A stretch of 64,000 nucleotides of DNA from Persicimonas caeni (GTDB taxonomy: Bacteria > Myxococcota_A > Bradymonadia > Bradymonadales > Bradymonadaceae): assembly GCF_006517175.1 (NCBI RefSeq), contig NZ_CP041186.1, positions 4,491,074 to 4,555,073 on the forward strand, in the 5' to 3' direction. Shown in pieces: positions 13,325-18,208 of this stretch. Both the position numbers and the translations under genes were made by a program. Below the pieces are notes generated by a model, which was given only the letters and a program-made list of their open reading frames with translations, made no database searches and had not been told where the DNA came from. How positions within the stretch are numbered: the stretch's first letter is position 1; the number at the start of each line of letters is the position of its first letter.

Positions 13325-13354
13325 TGATCCAAAATCGGAGCTGGCTCGTACTTC
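13325..13354 (+). promoter_or_regulatory. Candidate RpoE/ECF-type promoter of carF-sigma-chrR
   Basis: TGATCC (13325-13330), an 18 bp spacer, then TACTTC (13349-13354). The -35 element and spacing match what is known for group RpoE-ChrR promoters in alphaproteobacteria (TGATCC, about 18 bp, TA-rich -10), though only the leading TA of the -10 agrees. It lies 48 bp upstream of the preferred carF start and would allow autoregulation of the downstream sigma factor. Confidence 0.4.
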
Positions 13355-13401
13355 CTGTGACGGATGAATGAATGGTTTTTTGCAGTCACGGTACGAGTCG
13401 T

Positions 13402-14157
13402 ATGAATAGTTTGGGTCACTGGTGGCGCGCCTCGAGCGCCCACTACGAGTATTCGCCGAGTCATCGCTTCTTAGAGATCTTGGCCATCGCCGCAGCCATC
13501 GCCTTGATGGTGGTGATGTCGTGGAGGTTGTTGGCGGCGCTCGCGAGCACCGCCAGCCTGCTCAGTTGGGCCTGTGCGCTCGGCGCGGGGCTGGTTGGCT
13601 ACGTCGCCGCCGACTTCGTCTCGGGGATGGTGCACTGGCTGGCCGACCGCTTCGGCACGCCGGACACACCGGTCTTGGGCGAAGCGTTCATCCGCCCCTT
13701 TCGCGAGCACCACGATTTTCCCAAAAGGATCACCCACCACGACTTCGTGGAGGTCAACGGTAACAACAGCCTGGTGCTGCTGCTCGTGTTGGCGCCGGCC
13801 GCCTGGATGCTCCCGGCTCAACTCGACGCGGCGTGGCTCGCCTTCGGGTCGTTCTTCGTGAGCTTCCCGCTGGCGATCTTCATGACCAACCAGTTCCACA
13901 AGTGGGCGCATATGGACGAGGTGCCGGCGGTGGTGGCGTGGATGCAGCGGCGCGGTCTGATCTTGTCGCCTCGAGCCCACGACCGCCACCACACCGCGCC
14001 GTTCGAGACCGACTACTGCATCACCAGCGGCTGGCTCAACCCGCTGCTCGAGCGCTTCCAACTCTTTGCGCGCTGCGAGCGGTTCTTGAGGCGACGGCCG
14101 CCGCAGCAGACGCCGGCGGAGCATCACGAGCCGGCCTGCCCGCCGCCGTCCGTCTGA
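13402..14157 (+). CDS. carF: CarF/TMEM189-type plasmanylethanolamine desaturase
   Basis: Integral membrane di-iron-type desaturase (251 aa) that in Myxococcus (CarF) and animals (TMEM189/PEDS1) introduces the vinyl-ether bond of plasmalogens. Two N-terminal hydrophobic segments lead to the signature SGMVHWLADRFGTPDTPVLG, then FREHH, ITHHDFVEVNGNN, two more hydrophobic segments, NQFHKWAHM and SPRAHDRHHTAPFETDYC; the conserved histidines are all present. Length and motif order fit the family. An ATG 10 codons upstream (13372) is possible, but 13402 leaves a normal leader after the candidate promoter. It is followed 70 bp later by an ECF sigma/ChrR pair. In Myxococcus, CarF and plasmalogens are needed for singlet-oxygen signalling, so the neighbourhood is functionally coherent. 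Confidence 0.9.
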   Translation: MNSLGHWWRASSAHYEYSPSHRFLEILAIAAAIALMVVMSWRLLAALASTASLLSWACALGAGLVGYVAADFVSGMVHWLADRFGTPDTPVLGEAFIRPFREHHDFPKRITHHDFVEVNGNNSLVLLLVLAPAAWMLPAQLDAAWLAFGSFFVSFPLAIFMTNQFHKWAHMDEVPAVVAWMQRRGLILSPRAHDRHHTAPFETDYCITSGWLNPLLERFQLFARCERFLRRRPPQQTPAEHHEPACPPPSV

Positions 14158-14227
14158 GTCGGCGAGGCTTGAGCGCCCACACCTCGATTGCTACATTCGC
14201 CCGACGTGCGATTGTGTTCGAAGTGAT

Positions 14228-14797
14228 GTGCCGTTTATGGCTCGAGACGTGGACGATCAGGGGTTGGTCGAGGCTATCGCCGCAGGCGACCGCGAGGCGC
14301 TCGGCGAGTTGTACGACCGTTATGCTTCGGCCCTGATGGCGCTGGGGATGCGCCGCCTCGGTGACCGCGAGGAGGTCGAGGACGTGCTCCACGACGTCTT
14401 CTTGGAGGTGTGGCGTCGCGCCGACACCTACGAGTCGAGCCGCGGGACGGTGCAGACGTGGCTGATGCTGCGCATGCGAAGCCGCACCCTCGACCGCGCC
14501 CGCACCGTGCGGCGCAATCGGCTCGACTCCCTGGACGACGTCGACACCGACTCGCCCGATTGGCGCGCGCCCGAGGACCCGGCGAGTGACGCCGAGCACG
14601 CGCGGCTGCGCCAGGTCATCGACGAGTTGCCCGCGCGGCTGCGTCAGGTCCTCGGGTTGACGTATTTTCGCGGGCACACGTGCCGAGAGGCTTCCGAGCT
14701 GCTCGACATCCCACTGGGCACGGTCAAATCACGGCTGGCTGCGGCGCGCGAACGGCTCGAAGCGCTGCTCGGCGCCCACCAAGGAGGCTCGACATGA
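14228..14797 (+). CDS. ECF (RpoE-like) RNA polymerase sigma factor
   Basis: A 189 aa sigma-70 family member with only regions 2 and 4. Region 2 (about residues 12-85) contains ALGELYDRYASALMALGMRR and DVLHDVFLEVWRRADTYESS. Region 4 (about 125-180) contains RLRQVLGLTYFRGHTCREA, followed by SELLDIPLGTVKSRLAAARE. The sequence style (DVFLEVWRRA, GTVKSRL) fits RpoE partners of ChrR-type anti-sigma factors. The start is GTG 14228, or ATG 14237 three codons in; neither has a strong ribosome site. The stop overlaps the anti-sigma ATG (ATGA), indicating coupled, roughly stoichiometric synthesis. It probably transcribes its own operon and other stress genes when released from the anti-sigma. Confidence 0.92.
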   Translation: MPFMARDVDDQGLVEAIAAGDREALGELYDRYASALMALGMRRLGDREEVEDVLHDVFLEVWRRADTYESSRGTVQTWLMLRMRSRTLDRARTVRRNRLDSLDDVDTDSPDWRAPEDPASDAEHARLRQVIDELPARLRQVLGLTYFRGHTCREASELLDIPLGTVKSRLAAARERLEALLGAHQGGST

Positions 14798-15465
14798 CCG
14801 AGCACCTCGACAAAACAGGGCACATCGACTCGATGCTCGATGACTGGCTCGCGGGGGCGCTCGACGAGGCTGAAGAAGCCGCGCTGGAGGCCCACGCCGC
14901 TCAGTGTACGCGCTGCGCCCGAGCTCTCGAGCGCGCCCGGCAGCATTTCGTCGAGCTCGCCGCGGCGCTCGACCCCGTCGAGCCGTCGGCCGGCCTGCGA
15001 GACGACTTACTCGCCGCCGCGACGCCCGAGGCGCGCTTCGCCGATCTGGCCGACGAGGTCGCCGAGATCATCGATCTGTCCACCGAACGCGCCCTGAGGC
15101 TTTTGGGCCGCGTCGACGAGGCGAGCCATTGGGAGGAGGGGCCGTTTCCGGGCCTCGAGCTCTTCCACATCGACGGCGGTCCTTCGGTCGACGAGGCCAT
15201 CGTCGGCTTCGTGCGCATGACGCCGGGCATGGCCTTTCCCCACCACTCCCACCGGGGCGCCGAGACCACCTTGGTCTTGCAAGGCGGGCTGCGCGACGCC
15301 GATGGCACCGTCTACCGCCGCGGCGAGGTCGTCGAGCACGGCTCGGGGACGAGCCACGCCTTTGCCGCCCTCGACGACGCCCCTGCGCTCATCTACCTGG
15401 TCGTCGCCCACCACGGCATCGACGTCGGCGACACCCACTTCGGCCCGAACGACCCGGCGTTGTAA
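14794..15465 (+). CDS. ChrR-like zinc-cupin anti-sigma factor
   Basis: A 223 aa cytosolic anti-sigma factor. The N-terminal ZAS-type domain (about residues 1-75) has the zinc motif HAAQCTRC (H-x3-C-x2-C) within LDDWLAGALDEAEEAALEAH. The C-terminal cupin (about 110-215) has FPHHSHRGAETTLVLQGGLR, DGTVYRRGEVVEHGSGTSHA and a last LVVAHHG, giving the His/Glu metal set of ChrR-type cupins. In the known RpoE-ChrR pair the ZAS domain holds sigma and the cupin responds to singlet oxygen or organic peroxides. The start is set by the ATGA overlap with the sigma gene and AAGGAGG 7 bp upstream. No membrane segment is present, as for ChrR and unlike Myxococcus CarR. Confidence 0.9.
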   Translation: MTEHLDKTGHIDSMLDDWLAGALDEAEEAALEAHAAQCTRCARALERARQHFVELAAALDPVEPSAGLRDDLLAAATPEARFADLADEVAEIIDLSTERALRLLGRVDEASHWEEGPFPGLELFHIDGGPSVDEAIVGFVRMTPGMAFPHHSHRGAETTLVLQGGLRDADGTVYRRGEVVEHGSGTSHAFAALDDAPALIYLVVAHHGIDVGDTHFGPNDPAL

Positions 15466-15651: not shown

Positions 15652-16398
15652 ATGATTCCTCTGATTGTTATTGGCATTGGCATCGTCATGATCGCCGTCG
15701 AATTGGCCAGCCCGGCGCGCGAGTGGCCCGACGTGGCCGGCTGGTGGGGCCGGGCGATTTTATTCAACGGCATTCAGGTCGCCGCGGTCTATTTTGCCGG
15801 CGTGGCCTGGGACGGCTGGATGGCCGATCACAGGCTCTGGTCGCTCGACTCGCTGGGGCCGACCCTCGGTGGACTGGTCGGCTACCTGGTGCTGACCTTC
15901 GTGTACTACTGGTGGCACCGCGCGCGCCACGAGTCGCAGTTTTTGTGGAACTGGCTCCACCAGCTCCACCACAGCCCGCGGCGCCTCGAAATCATCACCT
16001 CGTTTTACAAGCACCCCATCGAGATCGTGACCAACGCGCTGATCTCGAGCGCGGTGGTCTACCTGCTCGTGGGCTTGAGCCCCACCCAAGCCGCCTACGC
16101 GACGCTCTTGAGCGGGCTGGCCGAGTTCTTCTACCACTGGAACGTCAAAACCCCGCACTGGGTCGGCTACATCATGCAGCGCCCCGAGAGCCACTGCGTG
16201 CACCACCAGCGCGGGCTGCACCGGTACAACTACGGCGACTTGCCGCTGTGGGACATGCTCTTCGGCACCTTCCACAACCCCAAAAATTGGGACGACGACT
16301 GCGGCTTCGAGGCCGACGAGGAGCTCCAGGTCATGGACATGCTCGCCGGGCGTGACGTGCAGAAGAAACCGTTCGTGGGCGAGGGAGGTGCCGAATGA
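15652..16398 (+). CDS. Sterol desaturase/fatty acid hydroxylase family protein
   Basis: A 248 aa integral membrane di-iron enzyme of the fatty acid hydroxylase superfamily. Four hydrophobic segments alternate with the histidine boxes WWHRARHES (H-x3-H), WLHQLHHSPRR (H-x2-HH), and the late ESHCVHHQRGLHRYNYGD then LFGTFHNPKN. The substrate (sterol, carotenoid, fatty acyl or ether lipid) is not readable. The ATG has AAGGTCG 6 bp before it. Its stop overlaps the start of 16395 (ATGA), so it heads a three-gene coupled operon. Its position just after carF-sigma-chrR suggests a lipid-modification role in the same response, but a 186 bp gap with its own palindromes separates them. Confidence 0.88.
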   Translation: MIPLIVIGIGIVMIAVELASPAREWPDVAGWWGRAILFNGIQVAAVYFAGVAWDGWMADHRLWSLDSLGPTLGGLVGYLVLTFVYYWWHRARHESQFLWNWLHQLHHSPRRLEIITSFYKHPIEIVTNALISSAVVYLLVGLSPTQAAYATLLSGLAEFFYHWNVKTPHWVGYIMQRPESHCVHHQRGLHRYNYGDLPLWDMLFGTFHNPKNWDDDCGFEADEELQVMDMLAGRDVQKKPFVGEGGAE

Positions 16399-16892
16399 GT
16401 CGCCTCGACTACCGTGCACTGGCGCTCCTGGTGCTGGGCCTGGCCCAGATGGTCGGCGCCCTGTTGGGCATCGGCCCGCTCAAGGGCCTGGCGGCGGCCA
16501 CCGTCGCCTCGCCCGCGCCCAAGGTCTTCTCGGCGGCCAAGGGCCTGGAGACCTACTCGACCGAGTTCTTTTTGGAGTGGCGAAGCGTCGACGGCGAGGA
16601 GCACGTCATGGCGCTGACGCCCCAGGTCTACCCGAAGCTGCAGGGCCCGTATAACCGGCGCAATATCTACGGCGCGATCCTCGCCTTCGGCCCGGTGCTC
16701 TACACCGAGGCGCCGGCGCGGCCGATGTTCGACGCGGCCAGCGAGTTCGCCCTGTGCGGCGAGGCGCCGGTGTTGCGCGAGCTCGGCATCGACCCGGCGA
16801 CCGTCGACGGCGGCGTGAGCGTGCGCTACGTGCCGCGCGACGGGCTCGACCTGGGAGAACTCCCCACGCTCATCGAGGTGCCCTGCTCATGA
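16395..16892 (+). CDS. Small signal-anchored protein, unknown function
   Basis: A 165 aa protein, not recognised. Residues about 7-36 form a hydrophobic signal anchor (ALALLVLGLAQMVGALLGIG), followed by a soluble domain of about 125 residues with mixed beta pattern (YSTEFFLEWRSVDGEEHVMA; YNRRNIYGAILAFGPVL; GGVSVRYVPRDGLDLGELPT) and two Cys (EFALCGEAP and the penultimate Cys). It lies between the hydroxylase and the HTTM-DCC protein with ATGA overlaps on both sides, so it is very probably a partner of those membrane proteins. Similar small proteins accompany HTTM genes in related bacteria, as far as I recall. Confidence 0.7.
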   Translation: MSRLDYRALALLVLGLAQMVGALLGIGPLKGLAAATVASPAPKVFSAAKGLETYSTEFFLEWRSVDGEEHVMALTPQVYPKLQGPYNRRNIYGAILAFGPVLYTEAPARPMFDAASEFALCGEAPVLRELGIDPATVDGGVSVRYVPRDGLDLGELPTLIEVPCS

Positions 16893-18208
16893 GTACGAAA
16901 ACACAGCGAAACAAACCGGACAATTTCGGCCGCGACCTCATGCGCCTTCGCGCCCCGCACGGATGGACCGGCGGCCAATACAGCGTCTACCGGGCCATCC
17001 TGGGCGTCTACCTGTGCGTGCACTTCGTGCATCTGATCCCGTGGGGCGCCGAGATGTTCTCGAACGAGGGCGTCCTGGCCGACGCGGCCACAAGCCCTCT
17101 GGCGTTCGTCTTCCCGAACGTCTTGAGCTTCTTCGACCCGCCCTGGTTCGTCACCGGCCTGCTCGTGGCGGCCGCGGTCGGAAGCCTCGCCTTCGCCGCC
17201 GGCTTCAAGGACCGCCTCGTAGCGGTCGGCCTGTGGTACGTGTGGGCGTGCCTGTTCGGCAGAAACCCGCTCATCAGCAACCCGAGCCTGGCCTTCGTCG
17301 GCTGGATGCTACTGTTGCACGCAGCCACCCCCGGCAAGCCCTTCGGCGCCTGGGACGCCCGCGGGCGCACCGACCCGCAGGGCGGCTGGAAGTTGCCGCG
17401 CTCGTATTTTTCGGCCGCCTGGATTCTGATGGCCGTCGGCTACACCTACAGCGGCTACACCAAGCTCATCAGCCCGTCGTGGCAAGACGGCACCGCCCTG
17501 GCCGAGGTGCTCGAGAGCCCGCTCGCCCGCGACACGGCCCTGCGTGAGTTCCTACTCGGCCTGCCCGACGTGCTCTTGCAGGCGGCCACCTACAGCACGC
17601 TCGCCCTCGAGCTCTTCGCGCTGCCGCTGGCGCTGGTCGGCCGGCTGCGCCCCTGGCTGTGGCTGTCGCTCGTCGGCCTGCACCTGGGCATCTTGTCGAC
17701 GGTGGCCTTCGCCGACCTGACCGTGGGGATGCTCACCGTCCACCTGCTCACCTTCAACCCCGCCTGGATAGGCAAGCTTCGCGACGGCGCGCTCGACCAC
17801 GTCTTCTACGACGGAAGCTGCGGGCTGTGCCAACGCACCGTCCGGTTTCTGCTCGCCGAAGACCCCGCCGAGCCGTACGCGTTTCGGTTCGCACCTCTCG
17901 CCAGCGACGCCTTCGCTCGTCGCCTGGGTGAGGCCGCCCCCGAGCGCAGTGTTTCCGAGATGCCCGACAGCGTCATCGTCATCACCGAGCGCGGCGAGGT
18001 GTTGGAGCGCTCCGAGGCGATCCTGTACCTCGGCAAGCGCCTGGGCGGGCTGTGGCGCGTGCTCGCCACGGCCGCCTCGTGGGTGCCGCGCGGGGTGCGC
18101 GACCGCGTCTACGACGGCGTGGCGGCGATCCGCCACAAGCTCTTCGAGCGGCCCAAAGAGGCGTGCCCGATGATGCCGCCGGAGGTGCGGGGGCGCTTTG
18201 ATTGGTGA
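16889..18208 (+). CDS. HTTM membrane domain fused to DCC thiol oxidoreductase
   Basis: A 439 aa fusion. Residues about 25-300 form a multi-helix HTTM domain, the membrane fold related to vitamin-K-dependent gamma-carboxylase (YRAILGVYLCVHFVHLIPWG; SAAWILMAVGYTYSGYTKL; MLTVHLLTFNPAWIG). Residues about 305-430 are a DCC (DUF393) domain beginning HVFYDGSCGLCQRTVRFLL, with the DGSCGLC thioredoxin-like motif. The pairing suggests a membrane redox or carboxylase-like reaction coupled to thiol chemistry; the substrate is unknown. The start is fixed by the ATGA overlap with the previous gene; a longer frame would run inside that gene. Confidence 0.85.
   Translation: MSTKTQRNKPDNFGRDLMRLRAPHGWTGGQYSVYRAILGVYLCVHFVHLIPWGAEMFSNEGVLADAATSPLAFVFPNVLSFFDPPWFVTGLLVAAAVGSLAFAAGFKDRLVAVGLWYVWACLFGRNPLISNPSLAFVGWMLLLHAATPGKPFGAWDARGRTDPQGGWKLPRSYFSAAWILMAVGYTYSGYTKLISPSWQDGTALAEVLESPLARDTALREFLLGLPDVLLQAATYSTLALELFALPLALVGRLRPWLWLSLVGLHLGILSTVAFADLTVGMLTVHLLTFNPAWIGKLRDGALDHVFYDGSCGLCQRTVRFLLAEDPAEPYAFRFAPLASDAFARRLGEAAPERSVSEMPDSVIVITERGEVLERSEAILYLGKRLGGLWRVLATAASWVPRGVRDRVYDGVAAIRHKLFERPKEACPMMPPEVRGRFDW

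Follow-up and report, generated by a model that had tools for sequence, protein, structure and literature searches.

In Rhodobacter sphaeroides, the extracytoplasmic function (ECF) sigma factor RpoE (sigmaE, group ECF11) and its soluble zinc/cupin anti-sigma factor ChrR control a core regulon that includes the enzymes UfaD, UfaO and UfaM for an oxidant-reactive lipid; singlet oxygen destroys the furan fatty acids concerned, without which ChrR is not turned over normally, and a role as second messengers has been proposed for them (PMC6852236; PMC7380195). The light pathway CarF-CarQ-CarR (carQRS) of Myxococcus xanthus likewise combines CarF and plasmalogens with an ECF sigma/anti-sigma pair that answers singlet oxygen, and plasmalogens are required there for inactivation of CarR (PMC9131029). 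Here we describe a locus in a 64,000-nucleotide stretch of the Persicimonas caeni genome (hereafter the window; contig NZ_CP041186.1, positions 4,491,074 to 4,555,073), in which a carF homologue, an ECF sigma gene (ecf) and a gene for a soluble ChrR-type anti-sigma factor (chrR) follow one another downstream of a promoter signature of ChrR-partnered sigma factors. These features make it highly likely that plasmalogen synthesis is transcriptionally coupled to an ECF-ChrR circuit in this organism, so that the locus appears to tie the making of a lipid to the sensing of oxidative stress.

The three genes lie on the forward strand in the order and with the spacing of the original prediction, carF and ecf being 70 bp apart if ecf starts at its GTG codon (79 bp if it starts at ATG) and ecf and chrR overlapping by 4 bp (ATGA, a gap of -4). 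No terminator-like site was seen between them. Domain profiles and structure matches bear out the predicted identities of the products as a CarF homologue, an ECF sigma factor and a ChrR-type anti-sigma factor. The features, in window coordinates, are:

13325 to 13350, + strand: ECF-type promoter signature before carF, TGATCC-N16-CGTA, an exact PSPTO_1043 consensus
13402 to 14157, + strand: carF, plasmanylethanolamine desaturase homologue (PF10520); ATG at 13402 is the likelier start, with an alternative start at 13372
14169 to 14197, + strand: possible weak internal sigma-70 promoter, TTGAGC-N17-TACATT with extended -10, in the carF-ecf gap
14237 to 14797, + strand: ECF sigma factor gene (Sigma70_r2/r4_2); alternative GTG start at 14228
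14794 to 15465, + strand: chrR-like gene for a predicted soluble protein with a zinc-finger anti-sigma domain and a cupin domain (zf-HC2, Cupin_7)
15652 to 16398, + strand: gene for an FA_hydroxylase-family membrane protein (PF04116, 103.5 bits), 186 bp 3' of chrR

This layout differs from both described systems. By locus number, R. sphaeroides RSP1091 (ufaD, a desaturase) is next to RpoE (RSP_1092), whereas in the window the lipid enzyme gene is upstream of the sigma gene and in the same direction. The carF genes published for myxobacteria (Cystobacterineae) stand alone and are transcribed divergently from the genes beside them (PMC9304148), and that of M. xanthus is not known to belong to a sigma operon, while carF here is predicted to be part of one; M. 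xanthus CarR is also a six-helix membrane protein, in contrast to the soluble ChrR-type anti-sigma factor predicted here (PMC9304148, PMC9131029).

The main evidence for a shared transcription unit comes from the promoter signature. In Pseudomonas syringae, the consensus measured for the sigma factor PSPTO_1043, whose partner is a ChrR, is TGATCC-N16-CGTA (PMC5507510); this sigma factor forms an RpoE-ChrR pair with PSPTO_1042 and is autoregulated, and its listed promoters do not include carF. The region singled out for study begins at 13325, which is the first base of an exact match to this P. syringae consensus (TGATCCAAAATCGGAGCTGGCTCGTA). In a search of the 330 bp preceding the sigma gene in 51 non-redundant ECF-ChrR pairs collected from Myxococcota, YGATCC-N16-CGTA was found upstream of ecf in 26; any other spacer length between 10 and 23 gave 0-1. 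Pairs fetched later gave 2 of 2 and 8 of 10; altogether, 36 of 63 pairs carry it. The element is widespread among Myxococcota ECF-ChrR pairs, probably as an autoregulatory promoter, and is usable for regulon prediction. The ECF11 promoter and its autoregulation appear to be shared by this locus and by the ecf upstream stretches of the clade. Within the window, the signature precedes carF and not ecf. Since it elsewhere stands before the sigma gene, its position upstream of carF strengthens the case for a shared transcription unit. The linkage of the CarF gene and a ChrR-type ECF pair, originally proposed as one apparent operon, stands, and the predicted shared unit has gained support from the promoter.

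The P. caeni assembly is a single contig of 8,047,206 bp and contains 12 exact YGATCC-N16-CGTA sites, nearly all of them intragenic; the site before carF is the only cleanly intergenic one. One other, TGATCC-N16-CGTA at G000:C1:3262541-3262566 (L075), lies at the end of one gene, ~70 bp before the gene for a 206-aa outer-membrane-like protein, which may be a second regulon member. Apart from this candidate, the exact sites revealed no other strong regulon members in the genome.

By sequence, the association of carF with ECF-ChrR is found beyond this locus, both in promoter-bearing carF genes and in gene linkage in the Leptospira class. YGATCC-N16-CGTA occurs at spacer 16 upstream of 7 of 177 non-redundant carF genes, vs. 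0-2 at other spacers. These are the gene in the window, two genes in G202 and one each in G254, G409, G209 and G331, and in these five other Myxococcota genomes chrR and the promoter-bearing carF are found on different contigs. The encoded CarF proteins are diverse, with pairs mostly 30-52% identical. All 6 genomes with a promoter-bearing carF have a ChrR homologue, against 20 of the 95 phylum-sample genomes that contain carF (P = 4.5e-5; 1.0e-3 when G409, in which no ECF was detected beside its ChrR, is counted as without the pair); the 95-genome table assumes that one sample equals the first 284 genomes of the other, as the genome numbering indicates. The survey predicts that carF belongs to the ECF-ChrR regulon of several Myxococcota lineages. 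The carF-like protein of G331 does not have the ninth histidine of CarF (H113, below), so this genome may not be a true CarF case. Inspection by eye of its locus (L278, 3557-4599) shows the ECF-type site between the divergent carF-like gene and a type III polyketide synthase-like gene, followed by a methyltransferase-like gene. In two metagenome-assembled genomes (MAGs) of the Leptospira class, carF is divergent from an ECF gene that is followed by a gene for a shorter cupin protein (L166 in G058 and L282 in G114, the latter with an additional 194-aa open reading frame (ORF) in the gap).

CarF is the sole Lipid_desat protein of the genome. The product of the ORF at 13372-14157 matches PF10520 with 190.5 bits. 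Nine histidines are essential in Myxococcus CarF and human PEDS1 (eight Lipid_desat-domain ones: PMC8960569), and an Asp and a Phe (D100 and F118) have been found critical in mouse PEDS1. The eight histidines of the Lipid_desat domain (H78, H103, H104, H166, H170, H193, H196, and H197), the ninth histidine H113 (mouse H131), and D82 and F100, the equivalents of the mouse Asp and Phe, are all present in CarF and invariant in 40 aligned CarF sequences. CarF therefore has in common with human PEDS1/TMEM189 the nine histidines and the essential Asp and Phe positions; unlike the human enzyme, it is bacterial and predicted to be encoded in a stress operon, and its activity is likewise a prediction. 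An AlphaFold2 model of CarF (predicted local distance difference test (pLDDT) 89) gave weak matches in the PDB, the best being yeast fatty-acid hydroxylase Scs7p (template-modelling score ~0.45, probability 0.97-0.99, no match with E <0.001), which fits a membrane di-iron fold but says nothing further. Homologues of elbB, elbC, elbD, and elbE are present in the Myxococcus order at G000:C1:7293464-7301963 (L334; ~7.293-7.302 Mb), with product identities of 47, 60, 43, and 42%, respectively (ElbD over 1482 aa), making an ether-lipid substrate pathway for CarF plausible. Two other genomes, G006 and G008, possess the same elbB-C-D-E set.

Published accounts, which describe CarF-type genes as very rare and almost confined to Cystobacterineae and Leptospira, greatly understate how common these genes are in bacteria. 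One genome scan recovered 208 stretches, and carF was found in 95 of 379 Myxococcota genomes, as well as in MAGs labelled Planctomycetota, Bacteroidetes, and Acidobacteria and in several Nannocystis.

The ECF protein carries Sigma70_r2 and r4_2 domains. Comparison with solved structures placed SigK, which we take to belong to group ECF19, as the best match and R. sphaeroides RpoE as the second (2q1z, E = 3.6e-16). The ChrR-like protein contains zf-HC2 and Cupin_7 domains and matches R. sphaeroides ChrR (2z2s) over both. In its anti-sigma domain, H34, C38, and C41 align with H31, C35, and C38 of R. sphaeroides ChrR. The cupin ligands H151, H153, and E157 were placed by the 2z2s alignment, their R. 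sphaeroides counterparts being the zinc ligands H141, H143, and E147; H188 would correspond, from its position, to H177, and all four residues are invariant among close homologues. No transmembrane-grade segment was detected in the ChrR-like protein on the Kyte-Doolittle scale (maximum 19-aa mean 1.26), so that the anti-sigma factor is predicted to be soluble, unlike the membrane-bound six-helix (DUF1109-like) CarR. PF06532, applied genome-wide as a CarR probe, is uninformative here, as it also overlooks M. xanthus CarR, the positive control. A structure prediction for ChrR by itself was of low quality (pLDDT 54) and was set aside.

Taken as a circuit, the locus can be read as follows. We infer that carF, ecf, and chrR are co-transcribed and that the stimulus is oxidative; the reading we favor, and regard as fairly likely, is an autoregulated ECF sigma/ChrR operon with oxidative induction in which carF lies closest to the promoter. 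At rest, the ChrR-like protein would keep the ECF sigma factor inactive, with low basal levels of sigma and anti-sigma perhaps supplied from a possible weak housekeeping promoter between carF and ecf. ChrR would be inactivated by an oxidative stimulus, for which singlet oxygen or lipid hydroperoxides are the likeliest candidates, and the freed sigma factor would transcribe its own operon from TGATCC-N16-CGTA, causing CarF, sigma, and anti-sigma to rise together. Because free sigma would transcribe carF-ecf-chrR, any oxidative stimulus that inactivates ChrR should raise CarF. CarF would in turn desaturate ether phospholipids to vinyl-ether plasmalogens. Vinyl ethers react readily with singlet oxygen, and in a feed-forward step the new lipid may scavenge the oxidant while its oxidation products help inactivate further ChrR. 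This last step, in which the lipid product of CarF helps inactivate ChrR, is drawn by analogy with R. sphaeroides and Myxococcus and is put forward tentatively, at somewhat less than an even chance. In its strictest form, to which we give about the same or a slightly lower chance, singlet oxygen could inactivate a soluble ChrR-type anti-sigma factor only by way of the vinyl-ether lipid as second messenger, the enzyme for which would be encoded first in the autoregulated operon of the sigma factor.

Several observations weigh against the coupled circuit, the first group of which concerns linkage. In the neighborhood search suggested in the original prediction, the joined arrangement proved not to be conserved, with no ECF/ChrR near carF in the 18 other carF genomes of the class (up to ~10 kb on each side, less on short contigs). 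Conservation of the adjacency in the family was rejected on this count. Similarly, carF is without an adjoining sigma pair at 79 of 80 loci of a named-genome scan, the exception being L166; no TGATCC-N16-CGTA is present in the Leptospira-class carF/ECF intergenic regions; and the exact site is absent upstream of carF in 14 of 20 ChrR-containing carF genomes. The sigma pair itself is not missing from all relatives, an outcome that had been named as refuting the proposal: other members of the family (G006, G010, and G001) encode an orthologous ECF-ChrR pair, unlinked to carF where carF exists. Finally, the element at 14169-14197 could uncouple ecf-chrR from carF. A strict sigma-70 scan between the genes returned no internal promoter; TTGA(C/G)-N17-TA elements occur near the same position in 5 of 51 ECF upstream stretches (the window and four other pairs) vs. 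0.17 in shuffles. A weak housekeeping-like element in the gap could leave the sigma gene only partly dependent on the carF promoter. The uniqueness of the adjacency in the family and this possible internal promoter would both suit an accidental neighborhood, in which carF and ecf-chrR have transcripts of their own and TGATCC-N16-CGTA arose by chance. We consider this very improbable, given that the chance expectation of an exact site is ~1.5e-4 per 200-bp upstream stretch on one strand (from a density of 12 sites/2 x 8.05 Mb) and that carF genes of five other genomes are preceded by the signature as well.

The second group of such observations concerns the proteins. CarF scores 211 bits (E = 2e-62) against the CarF equivalog model NF045946, below its 500-bit cut-off, and is therefore called a CarF/PEDS1 homologue with diagnostic residues rather than a proven equivalog. 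This score, and an identity of only 44% to the Myxococcus protein in pairwise alignment, leave some room for a desaturase acting on another lipid, either as an FAD4-like acyl desaturase or on an unknown substrate, with no plasmalogen made. The elbB-C-D-E-like operon and H113, whose equivalent separates PEDS1/CarF from plant FAD4 and alphaproteobacterial homologues, make this improbable. The ChrR-like protein scores 62.7 bits (E = 4e-17) against TIGR02451, below the 124.5-bit cut-off, which was passed in 0 of 58 genomes of the relatives search. Its candidate first zinc ligand, H10, is one residue out of register relative to H6 of R. sphaeroides ChrR, and the zinc ligands of the anti-sigma domain are absent in some close ChrR homologues.

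This variation of zinc ligands within the clade is compatible with the same circuit answering a natural stimulus other than singlet oxygen, such as organic hydroperoxides, metals, or another oxidant acting on the anti-sigma or cupin domain. We consider this unlikely, as E157 and H188 correspond to R. sphaeroides E147 and H177, required for the singlet-oxygen and hydroperoxide response, and the reactivity of vinyl ethers with singlet oxygen is established chemistry. The source organism is, moreover, a pink, predatory bacterium isolated from a solar saltern (PMC7188933). In favor of another stimulus, CarR also responds to copper (PMC9304148), and R. sphaeroides ChrR responds to organic hydroperoxides as well, through a different route (PMC6852236).

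Returning to the favored circuit, a role for carF as output only fits the sequence data as well as a lipid-feedback role. In that case, sigma would induce plasmalogens to armor or repair the membrane, as a sacrificial antioxidant or by altered fluidity, and the lipid would play no part in sigma release. We give this close to an even chance. It is supported by the five other Myxococcota genomes in which the promoter signature precedes a carF that is not linked to the ECF-ChrR pair, as would suit an ordinary regulon member, and by the dispensability of most R. sphaeroides sigmaE targets for ChrR turnover (PMC6852236). The lipid genes of that regulon, however, are exactly those needed for ChrR turnover (PMC6852236), and in Myxococcus the anti-sigma factor is inactivated only if plasmalogens, specifically, are available (PMC9131029).

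Each element has a precedent: ECF-ChrR circuits and CarF are known, and so is the idea that such a circuit may involve an oxidant-labile lipid. In its working, the proposed circuit follows the furan-lipid/ChrR loop of R. sphaeroides, except that the lipid enzyme of Myxococcus takes the place of the furan genes. In agreement with the view that this arrangement had not been described, no report bringing together CarF, plasmalogen, and ChrR was found in the open-licence literature searched. The locus bears on two open questions: how plasmalogens and singlet oxygen inactivate the Myxococcus anti-sigma factor, and by what route furan lipids bring about the turnover of Rhodobacter ChrR. If the vinyl-ether lipid were an obligatory messenger, CarF-CarR and furan lipid-ChrR would be two forms of one scheme, in which an oxidant-labile membrane lipid leads to anti-sigma release. 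Its readable promoter and small predicted regulon make the locus suited to asking whether a vinyl-ether lipid gates ChrR.

The surrounding genes include a Ser/Thr kinase gene (13183-11369), divergent and upstream of carF, whose product ends in a long low-complexity TETETVTETE/PEPKP tail. Downstream of chrR and in the same direction, the stretch 15652-18208 holds the FA_hydroxylase gene, a gene for a 165-aa protein without a family, and one for a membrane protein with a DCC1-like domain. The FA_hydroxylase gene is probably outside the carF-ecf-chrR unit, although promoter and regulon signals give no indication either way. Elsewhere in the genome, the 25-mer TGATCCTATCGACAAGCTCGTCGTA occurs four times (G000:C1 2762290, 3086087, 5733096, and 7678287); three of the four copies are inside a 610-aa ORF, suggesting that it is probably part of a repeated mobile element.

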